The notes: a model not told the origin generated them from the letters alone. A DNA stretch of 64,000 nucleotides from Myxococcus xanthus (GCF_900106535.1 NZ_FNOH01000007.1:248001-312000), one strand, 5' to 3'; shown: positions 6,968 through 14,612, numbered from the stretch's first letter. Numbers and translations: made by a program.

Positions 6968-7738
6968 TTAGAGATCGGCGAACAAGTCGACGGCCGCCTG
7001 AGCAAGCAAAGCCCGGTCGACCTCCTCGAGTCCTTCTGCATAGGCAATGATATCCAGCACACCTGCGGCATCCGTGCTCCAGAACAAGCGCTGCAGTTTG
7101 TCACGGAGCGCCTGCCCTTCCTCGCCGGCCTGCTTCAGTGATGCGCGCACGTCATCCAGCCCCACGAGCTTGACGTAGGCAAAGATATCGAAGCAGTCCT
7201 TGGTCTCCGTTGGCCGCTGCTCCAACTTGGCGCGAACCTTCATCGAGAGGAATCCAACTGCGTCCGGCAGCCGGATTCGCAGCGAGGTCTCTCCCATGGG
7301 GAGAAACACCGGCTGACTTCCACGCAGCGCCAACCGCGCATCAGGCAGCGGCGTCATGCTCGTGGGGAGCTGTTCCAAATCGACTCCAGCAGGTGCGAAC
7401 AGGTCGAGGTGCATCACCCCTCCCGGAAGGGTTTTCGACCAACGAAAACTGCGCGTTCGCTCGTACCCCCGGAGCTTGAGGACCTCAGGTAGACGCTCCG
7501 CCCCGAATTCGGTGCCATCCATGTCGAAGAGCAGATCAGGCTCGTGGGAATAGCCGCGCTCAATCACGGCGCCTGTGTCGGTCGTGACGGCGATGACCCC
7601 CGACCCACCCTTGCGGAGCGACTCCAACGCGAGCACCTGCCCGCCGATGAGCACGACGTTCCAGGAGAGATCTCCCAGTTGCAGCAGGAGTTCACCCAGT
7701 TCTCGCAGAATCTCTTCGAACTGCTCCTGCTCGGTCAT
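6968..7738 (-). CDS. AbiEii-like nucleotidyltransferase, candidate type IV toxin
   Basis: Protein of 256 residues that looks like a nucleotidyltransferase-fold protein of the AbiEii kind. What is visible: the strand plus GG loop WNVVLIGGQVLALE near the N-terminus, acidic positions in PDLLFDMD, a third carboxylate in MHLDLF, then an all-helical C-terminal half with TKDCFDIF. These correspond to the GG, D-x-D and third Asp positions of the fold, although the first carboxylates are spaced unusually. Its ATG overlaps the stop codon of the upstream AbiEi-like gene by four bases (ATGA), so the two are translationally coupled. AbiEii proteins act as toxins, some by adding nucleotides to tRNA; that activity here is inferred from family and pairing only. 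Confidence 0.6.
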   Translation of the reverse strand: MTEQEQFEEILRELGELLLQLGDLSWNVVLIGGQVLALESLRKGGSGVIAVTTDTGAVIERGYSHEPDLLFDMDGTEFGAERLPEVLKLRGYERTRSFRWSKTLPGGVMHLDLFAPAGVDLEQLPTSMTPLPDARLALRGSQPVFLPMGETSLRIRLPDAVGFLSMKVRAKLEQRPTETKDCFDIFAYVKLVGLDDVRASLKQAGEEGQALRDKLQRLFWSTDAAGVLDIIAYAEGLEEVDRALLAQAAVDLFADL

Positions 7739-8859
7739 GGCGCTTCCTCTGAGATGGGCAGCGCCTGTGCGAATCGCTGCACCAACTCATCCGCCTGTTC
7801 CTTGCCGCGCCCCCCACTTTGATGGAAATCCACGGTCAACTGAGGCAACGCCACACCCAGGCCATGAGGAAGCGTTCGTGGCGAAAAGAAGACCCCTCCG
7901 GCATCCGTCTCAGCCGAGGGCTCCGCCCGCAACACCCAGAAGTTATGAGGCATCAGACGGCGCAGCCCGAAGGCTTCGACAGCCGCGTCGATAGAGCCCG
8001 TGAGATAGAGCCCGTGAGGCAGCCCCGACACGAAGCGCTCTTCAGGCAGCAAGGCGCTCGCCAGCGTATAGATGCCCCGAATGCCTTGGGCCTTCAATCG
8101 CTCAAGGCCCTTCCCCAACAACTCCGGCGTGGTGGAAGGTGCGTTGAAACCATCCAGTGTCACGGAGGTCTTCTCGCCACTTGCCATCCACGCCCTCAGC
8201 AGGCGCACGGGAGCCCTCAGCCGAAACCCACTCCGCTTGCCGACCGGCTCGACATACCCATCGAGCACGAGGTGGCGGACGACGCCGTACGCATAGGAGT
8301 AACTGGTCTGCGTCCGCTCCGACAACGCGCGGACCGTCTGCGCTTCTCCCGGCGACTGCAACAGGGTCCGGACGATGCGGCACCCCTTCCCGTGGAATAC
8401 CGGCTCACGGGGACGCCGCTGTGACGGTTCGCGCCCCTGTACACGAATGAAGGTGCTGCCTGAGCGCAGGAAGAATGTTCCTCGCTGATCGACCAATGCG
8501 ACGTCTTCTTGCTCGCAGGCCGCGATGACTCCAGATGACGCGGAATCCGTCGCAATCATCGGGATGCGGACAACGGGCAGGCGCTCGGCGGTCCCATCCC
8601 GCTGGTCCAGCGCCACGCTCGCTGCGCGCAGGCGTTCCCGAAGTGAGTGCACGTCCGCCGGGAGCAACGGCGCGCGGTAGGCCATCAGGACCGGCACTCG
8701 GACCTGGGGGAGGACCACCTCGGCGAGTTCATAGATCGCCTGCCCACCAGGCCCTCGGCGCGGCAACAAGAAGACGTCTTGGCGCAGGAGTTCCACCCCC
8801 CGAGGTAACCGGAGGTCCTGCTTCCAGAATGCGTCTCGAAACTCCGCAGTCGAGTCCAT
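7735..8859 (-). CDS. AbiEi-type winged-helix antitoxin/regulator
   Basis: Protein of 374 residues, first gene of a two-gene operon with the AbiEii-like gene (ATGA overlap). A winged-helix DNA-binding region lies at about residues 160-215 (RALSERTQTSYSYAY then LVLDGYVEPVG). The C-terminal part has the signature of AbiEi_2-type antitoxins (Pfam PF09952): GLYLTGS, then VALPQLTVDF and GGRGKEQADELV. By family knowledge such proteins repress their own promoter and counter the toxin. The ATG at 8859 is preceded closely by an AT-rich promoter region with a 10-bp inverted repeat. An alternative is a stand-alone regulator with an accessory nucleotidyltransferase. Confidence 0.68.
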   Translation of the reverse strand: MDSTAEFRDAFWKQDLRLPRGVELLRQDVFLLPRRGPGGQAIYELAEVVLPQVRVPVLMAYRAPLLPADVHSLRERLRAASVALDQRDGTAERLPVVRIPMIATDSASSGVIAACEQEDVALVDQRGTFFLRSGSTFIRVQGREPSQRRPREPVFHGKGCRIVRTLLQSPGEAQTVRALSERTQTSYSYAYGVVRHLVLDGYVEPVGKRSGFRLRAPVRLLRAWMASGEKTSVTLDGFNAPSTTPELLGKGLERLKAQGIRGIYTLASALLPEERFVSGLPHGLYLTGSIDAAVEAFGLRRLMPHNFWVLRAEPSAETDAGGVFFSPRTLPHGLGVALPQLTVDFHQSGGRGKEQADELVQRFAQALPISEEAP

Positions 8860-10496: not shown

Positions 10497-10947
10497 GGGT
10501 CCTCCAAGGGGAGGCGCTCACTCTCCGTCGAGCCCCTGGGCCTCGCAAGCGACGGTGAGCGTCACCACCGCCCAGAAGCGGACAACGCCCGTGCGTCATG
10601 CAGGCATGGAACCGAGGGGCGGAGCGAGAATCCCAGGGGCCACCGCGCGCCGAGAGGGGGAACGCGGCGCGCGGGGCTCAACTGGGACTTCCACGACGGT
10701 GTCGCTTTTGGGGGAGGCAATCACCGCCGCCGCGTCTCACTCCGAAGAGGAAACGTGGACGGCATGTTGAAGGGCGAGCGAGCGCCCGTCAAGCACGCGC
10801 CCCCTCCGAGCCCATAATCGAACATTCACACCCGGTGAACACAGACGATTCCACTGTCACTGTCCAAATCAGGCAATTCCCCAGGGCCGCCACCGGAAGG
10901 CGGGCATCCCGTGCGGGGCGTGTTACAGGCCGGACAGAGGTAAGCGC
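10497..10947. other. Divergent intergenic region
   Basis: This 451-base stretch separates the leftward M28 peptidase gene from the rightward DUF262 operon and should contain both promoters. The part next to DUF262 (10815-10880) is less G+C-rich than the rest. I see no credible gene, RNA or clear operator in it. Confidence 0.4.
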
Positions 10948-12621
10948 ATGCAATCCACCCTGACGCGGCGGCCCCAGGCGACGGCATTCAGCATCGAGGA
11001 TCTGCTGGACCGCGTCCAGCGCGGTGAGGTGCGGCTGCCCCACTTCCAGCGGCCCCTGCGCTGGGAGGCCGGCGATGTGAGGGATTTGCTCGACAGCGTG
11101 TACCGCGGCTATCCCATTGGCACGCTGCTCTTCTGGAAGCGCGAGGCTCCCGCCGCCAGCGTGAGCTTCGGCCCGGTGCGCATCGACGCGCCCTCCCACA
11201 GCCAGGCGCTGTGGGTGGTGGATGGGCAGCAGCGCATCACCGCGCTGGCCGCGGTGCTCCTCCACCCGGAGCAGGAGCCCGCCGCGCGGGACGGCTTCAC
11301 GCTCTTCTTCGACCTGGATACACACGAAATCGTCCAGCCCGCGCACGGCGAGCCGACGCCTCCGCACTGGCTGCCGCTCAACCGGGTGCTCGACAGCGAG
11401 CAGCTGCTGGGCTGGCTGGACCGCTACCCGGGGCGCGAGAAGAACCCAGAGCACGTGCGCGCGGCCATCCGTCTGGGCAAGGCGGCGCGCGAGTACCAGA
11501 TGCCCGCGTACGTCGTCGAAGCCGCGGAGGAGAAGACGCTGCGCATCATCTTCAAGCGGCTCAACACCTCCGGAAAGCCGCTCACCGACGACGAGGTCTT
11601 CAACGCGCTCTACGGCGGCACCGCGGGCTCGCGACTGCCCAACCTGAAGGCGCTGGCCACCAGCCTGCTGGAGCTGGGCTTCGGCCGCATCGATGAATCC
11701 CTGCTGCTCAAGGCCGTGCTCGCGGTGCGCGGCCTGGACTTCACCCAGGACTTCCAGAAGCAGCTTCGCGAGGAGGACGACCTCACGCAGACGCTGCTCC
11801 AGACGGAAGCGGCCCTGCGCAGCGTCATCGTCTTCCTCAAGCGCGACGCGGGAATCCCCCACGGGCGCCTGCTGACGAACCCGCTCTACTTCGTGCTGCT
11901 CGCGCGCTTCTTCCACCTGCACCCGGAGCCGTCGCCGCGCACGCGGGACTTGCTCGCGCGTGGGTTCTGGCGCGGCAGCCTGGTGGACAGCTTCCTCGAC
12001 AGCCGGGCCCTGTCGCCACAGGAGTTGCTGGCCGCCATCGGCCCCGACGAGGAGCAATCCGTCCAGTCCCTGCTGGCGCAGGTGCGGCCCCTGTCCGACG
12101 AATGGCTGGCCCAGCACGCGCAGCCCGCGACGTTCGGCCTCGCGCTGCGCTCGCGGGGCATGGCCCTCAATGCCTTGTACGCGCTCCAGCCGCGGCACCT
12201 GCGCACCGGCGCCCTGCTGGAGCCGTCCCAGCTCTTCAGCGACACCGACCCCGCCAGCCTCAGCCCCGTGCTCAAGTCCCTCACCGTGCAGGAGCCCGAC
12301 GCCGAGCTGAAGCTGGACCCCGCGCTGTACCGCTCCTTCCTCTACACCCCCGCCAACTACCTGATGCACCCGCCCCTGCCCGGTCAGCCCCTGCTGGACG
12401 TGCTGCGGGACGAGCCCGCGCCGCCGCCCGAGGTCCTCCAGAGCCAGGCCATCACCCCCGCCATGCGCGACACGCTGCGCGAGGGCGGCACGCTCGAATT
12501 CCTCATGCAGCGCATGGAGCTCATCGATAGACACATCATCGAGTTCCTGCGGGCCCGCACCCGCTACGAGGAGTCGGACCGTCCGTCCCTCCAATCGCTG
12601 GTCGTCGAGGAGGAGGACTGA
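10948..12621 (+). CDS. DUF262-family protein (GmrSD N-domain/ParB-like) without HNH domain
   Basis: Protein of 557 residues with the DUF262 hallmark LPHFQRPLRWEAGDVRDLL (about 30-48), then GYPIGTLLFW and the DGQQR motif (92-96), which in related ParB/Srx-fold proteins is the nucleotide-binding and catalytic site. The helical C-terminal part ends in FLMQRMELIDRHIIEFL, as in single-domain DUF262 proteins; no DUF1524/HNH nuclease motif is seen. DUF262 proteins are frequent in anti-phage islands, where they can cut or sense modified DNA with NTP use. It starts with ATG preceded by AGAGGTAAG. The stop is one base before the HipA-like gene, so the two are almost certainly an operon. Confidence 0.8.
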   Translation: MQSTLTRRPQATAFSIEDLLDRVQRGEVRLPHFQRPLRWEAGDVRDLLDSVYRGYPIGTLLFWKREAPAASVSFGPVRIDAPSHSQALWVVDGQQRITALAAVLLHPEQEPAARDGFTLFFDLDTHEIVQPAHGEPTPPHWLPLNRVLDSEQLLGWLDRYPGREKNPEHVRAAIRLGKAAREYQMPAYVVEAAEEKTLRIIFKRLNTSGKPLTDDEVFNALYGGTAGSRLPNLKALATSLLELGFGRIDESLLLKAVLAVRGLDFTQDFQKQLREEDDLTQTLLQTEAALRSVIVFLKRDAGIPHGRLLTNPLYFVLLARFFHLHPEPSPRTRDLLARGFWRGSLVDSFLDSRALSPQELLAAIGPDEEQSVQSLLAQVRPLSDEWLAQHAQPATFGLALRSRGMALNALYALQPRHLRTGALLEPSQLFSDTDPASLSPVLKSLTVQEPDAELKLDPALYRSFLYTPANYLMHPPLPGQPLLDVLRDEPAPPPEVLQSQAITPAMRDTLREGGTLEFLMQRMELIDRHIIEFLRARTRYEESDRPSLQSLVVEEED

Positions 12622-12622
12622 C

Positions 12623-13852
12623 TTGGAGCCCACCCGCACCACGGCCGGAATCCTCGACGTCCACCTGGGCGACGTCCACGTCGGCACGCTGACGCTGCTG
12701 GAGGACGAACGCATCGAGTTCGTCATCGCGGAGGAGTACCGCCAGCGCTACCCACGCCCGGTGCTGGGACAGATTTTCGAGGACGACCTCTCGCGCCGGC
12801 ACGTCAGCCGCCTGCGCCTGCCTTCGTACTTCTCCAACCTGCTCCCGGAAGGCTCGCTGCGCGAGCTCATCGCCGAACGCGAGCAGGTGGCCCGCCAGCG
12901 CGAGTTCTTCCTCATCGCGCGGCTGGGTGAGGACCTGCCCGGCGCCATCGTCGTGCGGCCCGCCAGCGTGCTGTCACTCAGCGGAATGGAGCCGCTGGAG
13001 GAGCCCCAGCCGCCCCACGCGCCGCAGGAGCAGGAGCCGCTGCGCTTCTCACTGGCGGGCGTGCAGCTCAAGTTCTCCATGCTGCGCCGGGACAAGGCGA
13101 TGACGCTCCCGGCGGGTGGACGCGGCGGCAACTGGATTGTGAAGCTGCCGGACAACCGCTACGACCGCGTCCCGGAGAACGAGTTCTCCATGATGACGTG
13201 GGCCCGCGCCGCCGGCATCACCGTCCCCGAAGTGGCGCTGCTGGACGTGGCCGACATCCAGGGCCTGCCCGAAGGCATCACCCTGCGCGAGAACGTGGCC
13301 TACGCCGTGCGCCGCTTCGACCGCCCCGAGCCCGGCCGCCGGGTCCACATGGAGGACCTGACGCAGGTGCTGGGGCTGTACGCGGATGAGAAGTACAAGA
13401 AGTACAACTACGAGACGGTCGCCAACGTCATCTACAAGGTCGCCGGACTGGACGCGCTGCACGAGTTCCTGCGGCGGCTGGTGTTCATCACCGTCATTGG
13501 CAACGGGGACGCGCACCACAAGAACTGGTCCCTGCTCTACCCGGACGGCACCCGCGCCACGCTGTCACCCGCGTACGACTTGGTGTCCACGCTCCAGTAC
13601 ATGCCGGCGGACACGCTCGCGCTCAACTTCGCGAAGTCAAAGCGCTTCGAGGACATCTCCCTGGGCAGCTTCGAACGGCTGGCGCGCAAGCTGGCGCTGC
13701 CCCCCAGCGACGTGCTGCCGGTGGTGAAGTCCGCGGTGGAAGCGTCGCTCGACACCTGGTCCTCGCTTCACGCGCAACTGCCCCTGCCGGATGAGAGCCG
13801 CCGCCGCATCGAAGCCCACTGGAAGCGCGTGCCCCTGCTCCAGGGGCAATGA
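12623..13852 (+). CDS. HipA-family Ser/Thr kinase toxin
   Basis: Protein of 409 residues with the two HipA parts: N-terminal HipA_N (about 8-115, including LPSYFSNLLPEG) and the kinase domain (about 140-380). Visible functional residues are Lys150 in SLAGVQLKFS, Lys174 in WIVKLP, the catalytic loop GNGDAHHKN (Asp296, Asn301) and the DFG-equivalent Asp319 in AYDLVS. HipA kinases phosphorylate aminoacyl-tRNA synthetases and cause growth arrest. The start is TTG at 12623 with GGAGGAGGA five bases upstream. The usual HipB partner (small HTH antitoxin) is absent; DUF262 lies in its place one base upstream and a methyltransferase follows after 13 bases. Confidence 0.85.
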   Translation: MEPTRTTAGILDVHLGDVHVGTLTLLEDERIEFVIAEEYRQRYPRPVLGQIFEDDLSRRHVSRLRLPSYFSNLLPEGSLRELIAEREQVARQREFFLIARLGEDLPGAIVVRPASVLSLSGMEPLEEPQPPHAPQEQEPLRFSLAGVQLKFSMLRRDKAMTLPAGGRGGNWIVKLPDNRYDRVPENEFSMMTWARAAGITVPEVALLDVADIQGLPEGITLRENVAYAVRRFDRPEPGRRVHMEDLTQVLGLYADEKYKKYNYETVANVIYKVAGLDALHEFLRRLVFITVIGNGDAHHKNWSLLYPDGTRATLSPAYDLVSTLQYMPADTLALNFAKSKRFEDISLGSFERLARKLALPPSDVLPVVKSAVEASLDTWSSLHAQLPLPDESRRRIEAHWKRVPLLQGQ

Positions 13853-13865
13853 ACCGGGGCCCGCC

Positions 13866-14612
13866 ATGAGCGAAGACGCCTTCTTCACCGTCTATGGCAA
13901 CCTGCCCCGTCACGGCCCTGGCAGCGACGACTGCACCCGGGAGGCCCTGCGACGGCTGCCTCCGCTGCCACCGCACCCGCGCGTGGTGGACCTCGGCTGT
14001 GGCGCGGGCGCGCAGACGCTGGTGCTCGCCGAGGCACTGCGCACCCGGGTCATCGCGGTGGACCTGCACGAGCCCTTCCTCGACCAACTCAAGGCACGAG
14101 CGCGCGAGCGGGGCCTGGACGCGCTCATCGACGTTCAGCGGCAGGACATGGGCGCACTGTCGCTGCCCGAGGCTTCCTTTGACCTCCTCTGGTCCGAAGG
14201 CGCCATCTACCACCTGGGCTTCGGTCCGGGACTGCGGCGCTGGCGCCCGCTGCTCGCGCCCGGCGGCCTGGCTGCCGTCACCGAATGCACCTGGCTGACC
14301 GATGAGCGCCCCGACGAAATCGCGCGCTTCTGGGGTGAGGTCTACCCCACCATGGGTACGGTTTTGGAGAACCGCGCCGCCGCGGAAACCGCGGGCTACG
14401 AGGTGCTCGACACCTTCACCCTTCCCGCCTCCGCATGGTGGGACACCTACTACACGCCCCTGCTCCAGCGCGTCGCACACCTGCGCGCCCACGGTGATGC
14501 GTCATTGGAAGACGCGCTCTCGGCCGCCGAGCAGGAGACCCGCCTTTATCGCCAGTACGAACACACCTACGGCTACGTGTTCCATCTGTTACGCAACCCG
14601 TCAGCGCTTTGA
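13866..14612 (+). CDS. Class I SAM-dependent methyltransferase
   Basis: Protein of 248 residues with a Rossmann methyltransferase fold: motif I DLGCGAGAQT (about residues 40-49), acidic loop AVDLHEPF, motif for strand 4 LLWSEGAIYHLGF and post-motif LAPGGLAAVTE. The substrate is unknown; the aromatic C-terminal part (WWDTYYTPLL) suggests a small molecule rather than DNA, and there is no DNA-methylase N/DPPY motif. It begins 13 bases after the HipA-like gene and is likely the third gene of the operon, though a housekeeping passenger role cannot be excluded. Confidence 0.78.
   Translation: MSEDAFFTVYGNLPRHGPGSDDCTREALRRLPPLPPHPRVVDLGCGAGAQTLVLAEALRTRVIAVDLHEPFLDQLKARARERGLDALIDVQRQDMGALSLPEASFDLLWSEGAIYHLGFGPGLRRWRPLLAPGGLAAVTECTWLTDERPDEIARFWGEVYPTMGTVLENRAAAETAGYEVLDTFTLPASAWWDTYYTPLLQRVAHLRAHGDASLEDALSAAEQETRLYRQYEHTYGYVFHLLRNPSAL

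Follow-up and report, generated by a model that had tools for sequence, protein, structure and literature searches.

A full-length HipA of Myxococcus xanthus, a bacterial kinase of the growth-arresting type, is encoded directly downstream of a DUF262 NTPase, and the same two genes recur side by side in dozens of unrelated bacteria, with DUF262 in the place of HipB, the small DNA-binding antitoxin with which HipA is normally paired. The pair appears not to have been described previously, and it would represent a HipA system with an exchanged regulator. We judge it rather probable that the two genes form a horizontally transferred toxin-antitoxin-like system, with HipA as the effector, DUF262 as its regulator, and a trigger that is probably phage-related. 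When 84,980 species genomes were scanned for the DUF262 family, 80 loci were kept, and 59 of these encode an intact DUF262 protein with an intact HipA directly downstream. The gap between the two genes is -17 to +7 bases in 57 of these 59 intact pairs.

The locus and its proteins in Myxococcus xanthus

The window, a 64,000-nt stretch of M. xanthus DNA, belongs to a myxobacterial contig, and close relatives of the locus are found in Myxococcus. Three ORFs on the + strand encode, in this order, DUF262 (10948-12621), HipA (12623-13852), and a methyltransferase (13866-14612), and an M28 peptidase gene is the upstream neighbor of the DUF262 gene. Their coordinates agree with the gaps of 1 base (DUF262-HipA) and 13 bases (HipA-methyltransferase) from which the original prediction had proposed one unit, and the absence of a small HTH gene, claimed at the same time, was borne out both between DUF262 and HipA and directly upstream of the pair. 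A search of the upstream region for HipB-like autoregulation gave a single short inverted repeat (10643-10674) and no sigma-70 or terminator-like sites.

The DUF262 (GmrSD_N) protein (557 aa, ATG start) consists of a ParB/Srx-like NTPase N-terminal domain and a helical C-terminal domain, with no HNH. The GmrSD_N/DUF262 domain spans residues 16-222 (10993-11613; Pfam, 3.9e-31) and carries the expected NTPase motif DGQQR at residues 92-96 (11221-11235), of which D92, G93, Q94, and R96 are invariant in the 59 intact pairs and Q95 is present in 58. The AF2 model was confident (pLDDT 90.2, pTM 0.87), and the best solved structures retrieved with it by Foldseek were BrxU (2e-11), SspE, and DndI, all of which are DUF262 proteins. 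The C-terminal domain (residues 226-557; 11623-12618) is mostly helical in the model and matches no Pfam family. Neither Pfam, within residues 223-557, nor Foldseek gave a match to a DUF1524/HNH nuclease or other nuclease, so an effector likely acts in trans. Between the window and three Myxococcaceae loci, the C-terminal part evolves faster (44-45% identity) than the NTPase part (69-74%) and than HipA (about 75%). Among PADLOC models, PDC-M55C matched along the whole protein (200 bits, 1.6e-59, residues 12-536).

HipA (409 aa) is full length and matches Couple_hipA (4.6e-17) and HipA_C (2.5e-51) in Pfam; its start codon is TTG in the window and, at the corresponding position behind TGA-C, ATG in relatives. 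It matched E. coli HipA structures (3.5e-17). In PADLOC, a weak PDC-M03A match was its only hit, and neither HipA nor the methyltransferase matched a retron, CBASS, or other known system. By alignment, Ser143 (13049-13051) corresponds to the autophosphorylation site Ser150 of E. coli HipA, Asp319 (13577-13579) to the Mg-binding D332, and Asp296 (13508-13510), the residue that the original prediction had singled out for mutation, to the catalytic D309. K174, D296, N301, and D319 are invariant in all 59 intact pairs, and S143 is found in 56. With kinase and NTPase residues conserved, both proteins look active. The only other HipA of the genome (436 aa; G000:C7:357023-357529, - strand; L094:3817-5127) is HipH/YjjJ-like, with a weak N-terminal HTH match and no HipB gene.

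Spread of the pair and exchange of the HipA partner

The host phyla of the intact pair include Myxococcota, Acidobacteriota, Planctomycetota, and Thermomicrobiota, as well as Pseudomonadota (Azospirillum relatives, Gallionellaceae, Accumulibacter, and Thiohalocapsa) and Actinomycetota (Streptomyces, Nocardia, Mycobacterium, and Saccharomonospora). The pair is also carried by two Azospirillum plasmids, one of which was typed as conjugative. Thus, the neighborhood search called for in the original prediction found the adjacency well beyond one genome, and a chance adjacency of DUF262 and HipA is excluded by the number of intact pairs across phyla and the narrow range of their gaps. Among 145 genomes of the order, 56 contain a DUF262 relative, and HipA abuts it in all 30 of the best loci examined. 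In a phylum-wide sample, the closer HipA relatives adjoin DUF262 with one exception (L076), which is linked to HipB. In IMG/VR, close viral relatives were not found and only distant DUF262 proteins were listed. At eleven loci (L111, L112, L114, L115, L118-L121, L146, L149, and L103), HipA starts directly after the DUF262 stop codon in the same frame, so that readthrough of the stop would yield a fused protein.

HipB is truly absent from the pair. In 21 other HipA loci, an HTH gene of the HipB type lies directly upstream, in the position of DUF262, and none of the 21 has both partners, which shows that DUF262 and HipB alternate exclusively as the HipA partner. An overlooked HipB was ruled out, as no HTH gene lies between the two genes or directly upstream and none is conserved nearby. 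The nearest HipA relatives without DUF262 (43-45% identity) are encoded on rhizobial and Komagataeibacter plasmids with an HTH gene upstream. Some HipB-linked HipAs fall in the clade of DUF262-linked HipAs and others are more distant, and only three changes of partner type (DUF262 versus HipB) are needed to explain a tree built from 98 HipAs; since the deep branches of this tree are weak, one or a few partner swaps are possible. DUF262 relatives that score below about 300 bits against the paired family never occur with HipA. One of these low-scoring relatives, at L109, is accompanied by PDC-M55A and PDC-M55B. At L099 and L109, the neighbors of the DUF262 relative are an ATPase and a further protein, an arrangement of the PDC-M55 type that PADLOC models confirm for L109 and that represents a sister architecture in which this DUF262 family has another partner.

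The two proteins have been inherited together. Their identity matrices are strongly correlated (Mantel r 0.87; none of 2000 permutations as high); given that related species share descent, this is evidence of joint inheritance and not of contact. DUF262 and HipA are both under purifying selection in Myxococcus, where their dN/dS lies between 0 and 0.24. For both proteins of the pair in two Chromatiaceae, the nearest relatives are actinobacterial pairs, which suggests joint horizontal transfer. Genomes without the pair retain the flanking genes, and the pair has been gained or lost repeatedly as a unit. Incomplete pairs were also observed: intact DUF262 occurs without an intact HipA, which is frameshifted or missing, at seven loci (L141, L176, L183, L157, L158, L171, and L174), and intact HipA occurs with a broken DUF262 at two (L122 and L123). 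This asymmetry leans toward a toxin-antitoxin relationship but is not significant, and the cases may reflect decay or, in some instances, assembly errors.

The methyltransferase and a solitary DUF262 C-terminal domain

The third gene of the window encodes a class I SAM methyltransferase (248 aa, ATG start; Methyltransf_25, 4.9e-16 in Pfam). In some Myxococcus it lies behind HipA; other Myxococcus and all remaining lineages except Corallococcus lack it. Of the three-gene unit originally proposed, the DUF262-HipA pairing therefore stood, as an arrangement of many phyla, while the methyltransferase is linked only in part of the Myxococcaceae. In two Myxococcus genomes (G099 and G100), the same site carries an M28 peptidase, the methyltransferase, and a histidine kinase without DUF262-HipA, and in G102, G105, and G113 it has neither the methyltransferase nor the pair. 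We rejected the methyltransferase as a core third gene on its absence outside Myxococcus and Corallococcus and its occurrence without the pair; it is a lineage-limited accessory to a core of two genes, DUF262 and HipA. A role as the DNA methylase of a restriction system was likewise unsupported, as generic class I domains alone were matched, in PADLOC only the generic methyltransferase domain of mad2. In all eight Corallococcus-type loci examined (L088, L089, L092, L093, L125, L127, L128, and L162), HipA and the methyltransferase are fused in frame into a protein of about 670 aa (HipA_C, Couple_hipA, and Methyltransf_25), and this fusion hints at a functional link in the Corallococcus lineage.

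These full pairs with the fused methyltransferase sit elsewhere in Corallococcus. The Corallococcus site orthologous to the locus in the window encodes only a DUF262 C-terminal domain of about 340 aa, with no NTPase domain and no HipA. We identified this solitary C-terminal half at L101, L102, and L293-L298; the gene is intact in six Corallococcus genomes with dN/dS of 0.2-0.6, indicating purifying selection, and the domain can thus persist on its own. It perhaps acts as an antitoxin-like protein.

Relation to known systems and possible functions

The locus resembles HipBA of E. coli K-12 and relatives in having a full-length HipA with the N-subdomain and the equivalents of Ser150, D309, N314, and D332, and in having the partner gene directly upstream. 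Unlike the small HTH protein HipB, the partner here is a 557-aa DUF262 NTPase. HipA kinases with a non-HipB partner are also known from HipAD, DS-6, and PDC-M66 (HipA with DUF3037 or DUF1829), and in HipAD phage defense needs HipA and deletion of the DUF3037 gene is toxic (PMC13092281, PMC12548924). However, the DUF262 partner has no DUF3037 or DUF1829 match, and the HipAs tested match no PADLOC PDC-M66 model. The DUF262 protein is of the M55C type of PDC-M55, a PADLOC candidate system composed of an AAA ATPase (A), a protein B, and DUF262 (C), but M55A and M55B are absent and HipA is present instead, whereas both were found at the control locus L109. M55C-like proteins of the PDC-M55 type give lower scores against the paired family and lack HipA.

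The DUF262 fold and the DGQQR NTPase motif are shared with SspE, BrxU, GmrSD, and DndI, which combine DUF262 with DUF1524; the DUF1524/HNH nuclease of these proteins is missing here. In SspE, DUF262 recognizes modified DNA, and GTP hydrolysis through DGQQR licenses the nuclease (PMC13251355). DUF262 without a nuclease acts with separate partners in Menshen and is also present in Dazbog and PD-T4-2 (PMC10952713). As in Menshen and ptuXYZ, DUF262 without DUF1524 is here encoded alongside a separate effector in a system of several genes, but those systems combine it with an ATPase/OLD-type protein or a BECR RNase and not with HipA. A HipA-homologous kinase is also shared with the Hip kinases classified by Gerdes et al. 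(2021), who described ten organizations, none of them linked to DUF262 (PMC8262856). No description of a DUF262-HipA system was found in PADLOC v2 or in open papers (preprints and subscription journals lay outside the search), and 'HipA' and 'DUF262' co-occur in only one of the open papers, as unrelated mentions.

The precedents of HipAD, SspE, and Menshen make sensing and restraint by DUF262, toxicity of HipA, and an anti-phage role plausible. In the resting cell, DUF262 would keep HipA inactive. A trigger, which may be modified or phage DNA if SspE, BrxU, and Dazbog are a guide, would be sensed by DUF262, and binding or hydrolysis of NTP at DGQQR would then free or license HipA. The freed HipA, as a Ser/Thr kinase toxin, would phosphorylate a host target, stop growth, and limit the spread of the phage; a tRNA synthetase is a known target of HipA. 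We entertain more tentatively, at somewhat less than even chances, a specific form of this mechanism, in which the pair would be a widespread, undescribed relative of type IV restriction that is armed with a kinase. Phage or modified DNA would be recognized by DUF262, and a recognize-hydrolyze-activate switch resembling the one in SspE would license HipA in trans, in place of an HNH nuclease, for abortive infection through translation arrest. An AF2 model of a DUF262-HipA fusion, made for the loci with HipA in frame after the DUF262 stop, gave a pTM of 0.59, which is about the value for two unrelated domains and thus lends no support to an interface.

If a DUF262-controlled HipA is correct, HipA kinases can take on a nucleotide-driven sensor of restriction systems in place of their antitoxin, which would link persister-type kinases to DNA sensing. 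One could then also test whether DUF262 serves as a general switch for any effector, be it an HNH nuclease, an ATPase/OLD protein, an RNase, or a kinase. The pair would then be a portable candidate system, for defense or of the toxin-antitoxin type, that occurs in many phyla but is missing from the lists searched.

A plain addiction module, in which DUF262 is a large NTP-needing antitoxin without phage sensing and the pair stabilizes plasmids or chromosome segments, is the strongest alternative, and we consider it rather unlikely. It would fit the presence of the pair on plasmids, its gain or loss at a fixed chromosomal site, the occasional retention of the antitoxin-like DUF262 gene after loss of HipA, and the scattering of pairs among housekeeping genes rather than in defense islands. 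Among 148 neighboring proteins, we found no conserved third gene, few defense genes, and no defense-island signal in a raw tally made with no background set, which leaves room for an addiction role. However, an antitoxin needs no conserved NTPase from a family otherwise associated with defense, and the invariant DGQ-R residues and the fast-changing, sensor-like C-terminus of DUF262 argue against this alternative. It is still less probable that the roles are reversed, with HipA phosphorylating and controlling a DUF262 effector that acts on DNA or nucleotides. PtuX, a DUF262 protein without DUF1524, is a proposed nuclease (PMC11980606), and the DUF262 C-terminal part alone is under purifying selection in Corallococcus; yet this solitary remnant lacks the NTPase domain, the DUF262 protein has no HNH or other nuclease match, and HipA comes from a lineage of known toxins. 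An ordinary hipBA with an unannotated HipB and DUF262 as a chance neighbor would account for the normal, full-length HipA, but it is refuted by the neighborhood survey, with 59 adjacent intact pairs across phyla, genes overlapping or abutting, and no conserved HTH nearby.

Two overlapping genes on the - strand of the window (6968-8859), encoding proteins of 374 aa and 256 aa, resemble an AbiE-type pair by eye, with no family match. The 374-aa gene has a central winged-HTH-like stretch and the 256-aa gene a nucleotidyltransferase-like start, and L080 and L083 have conserved this AbiE-like gene pair next to the locus.
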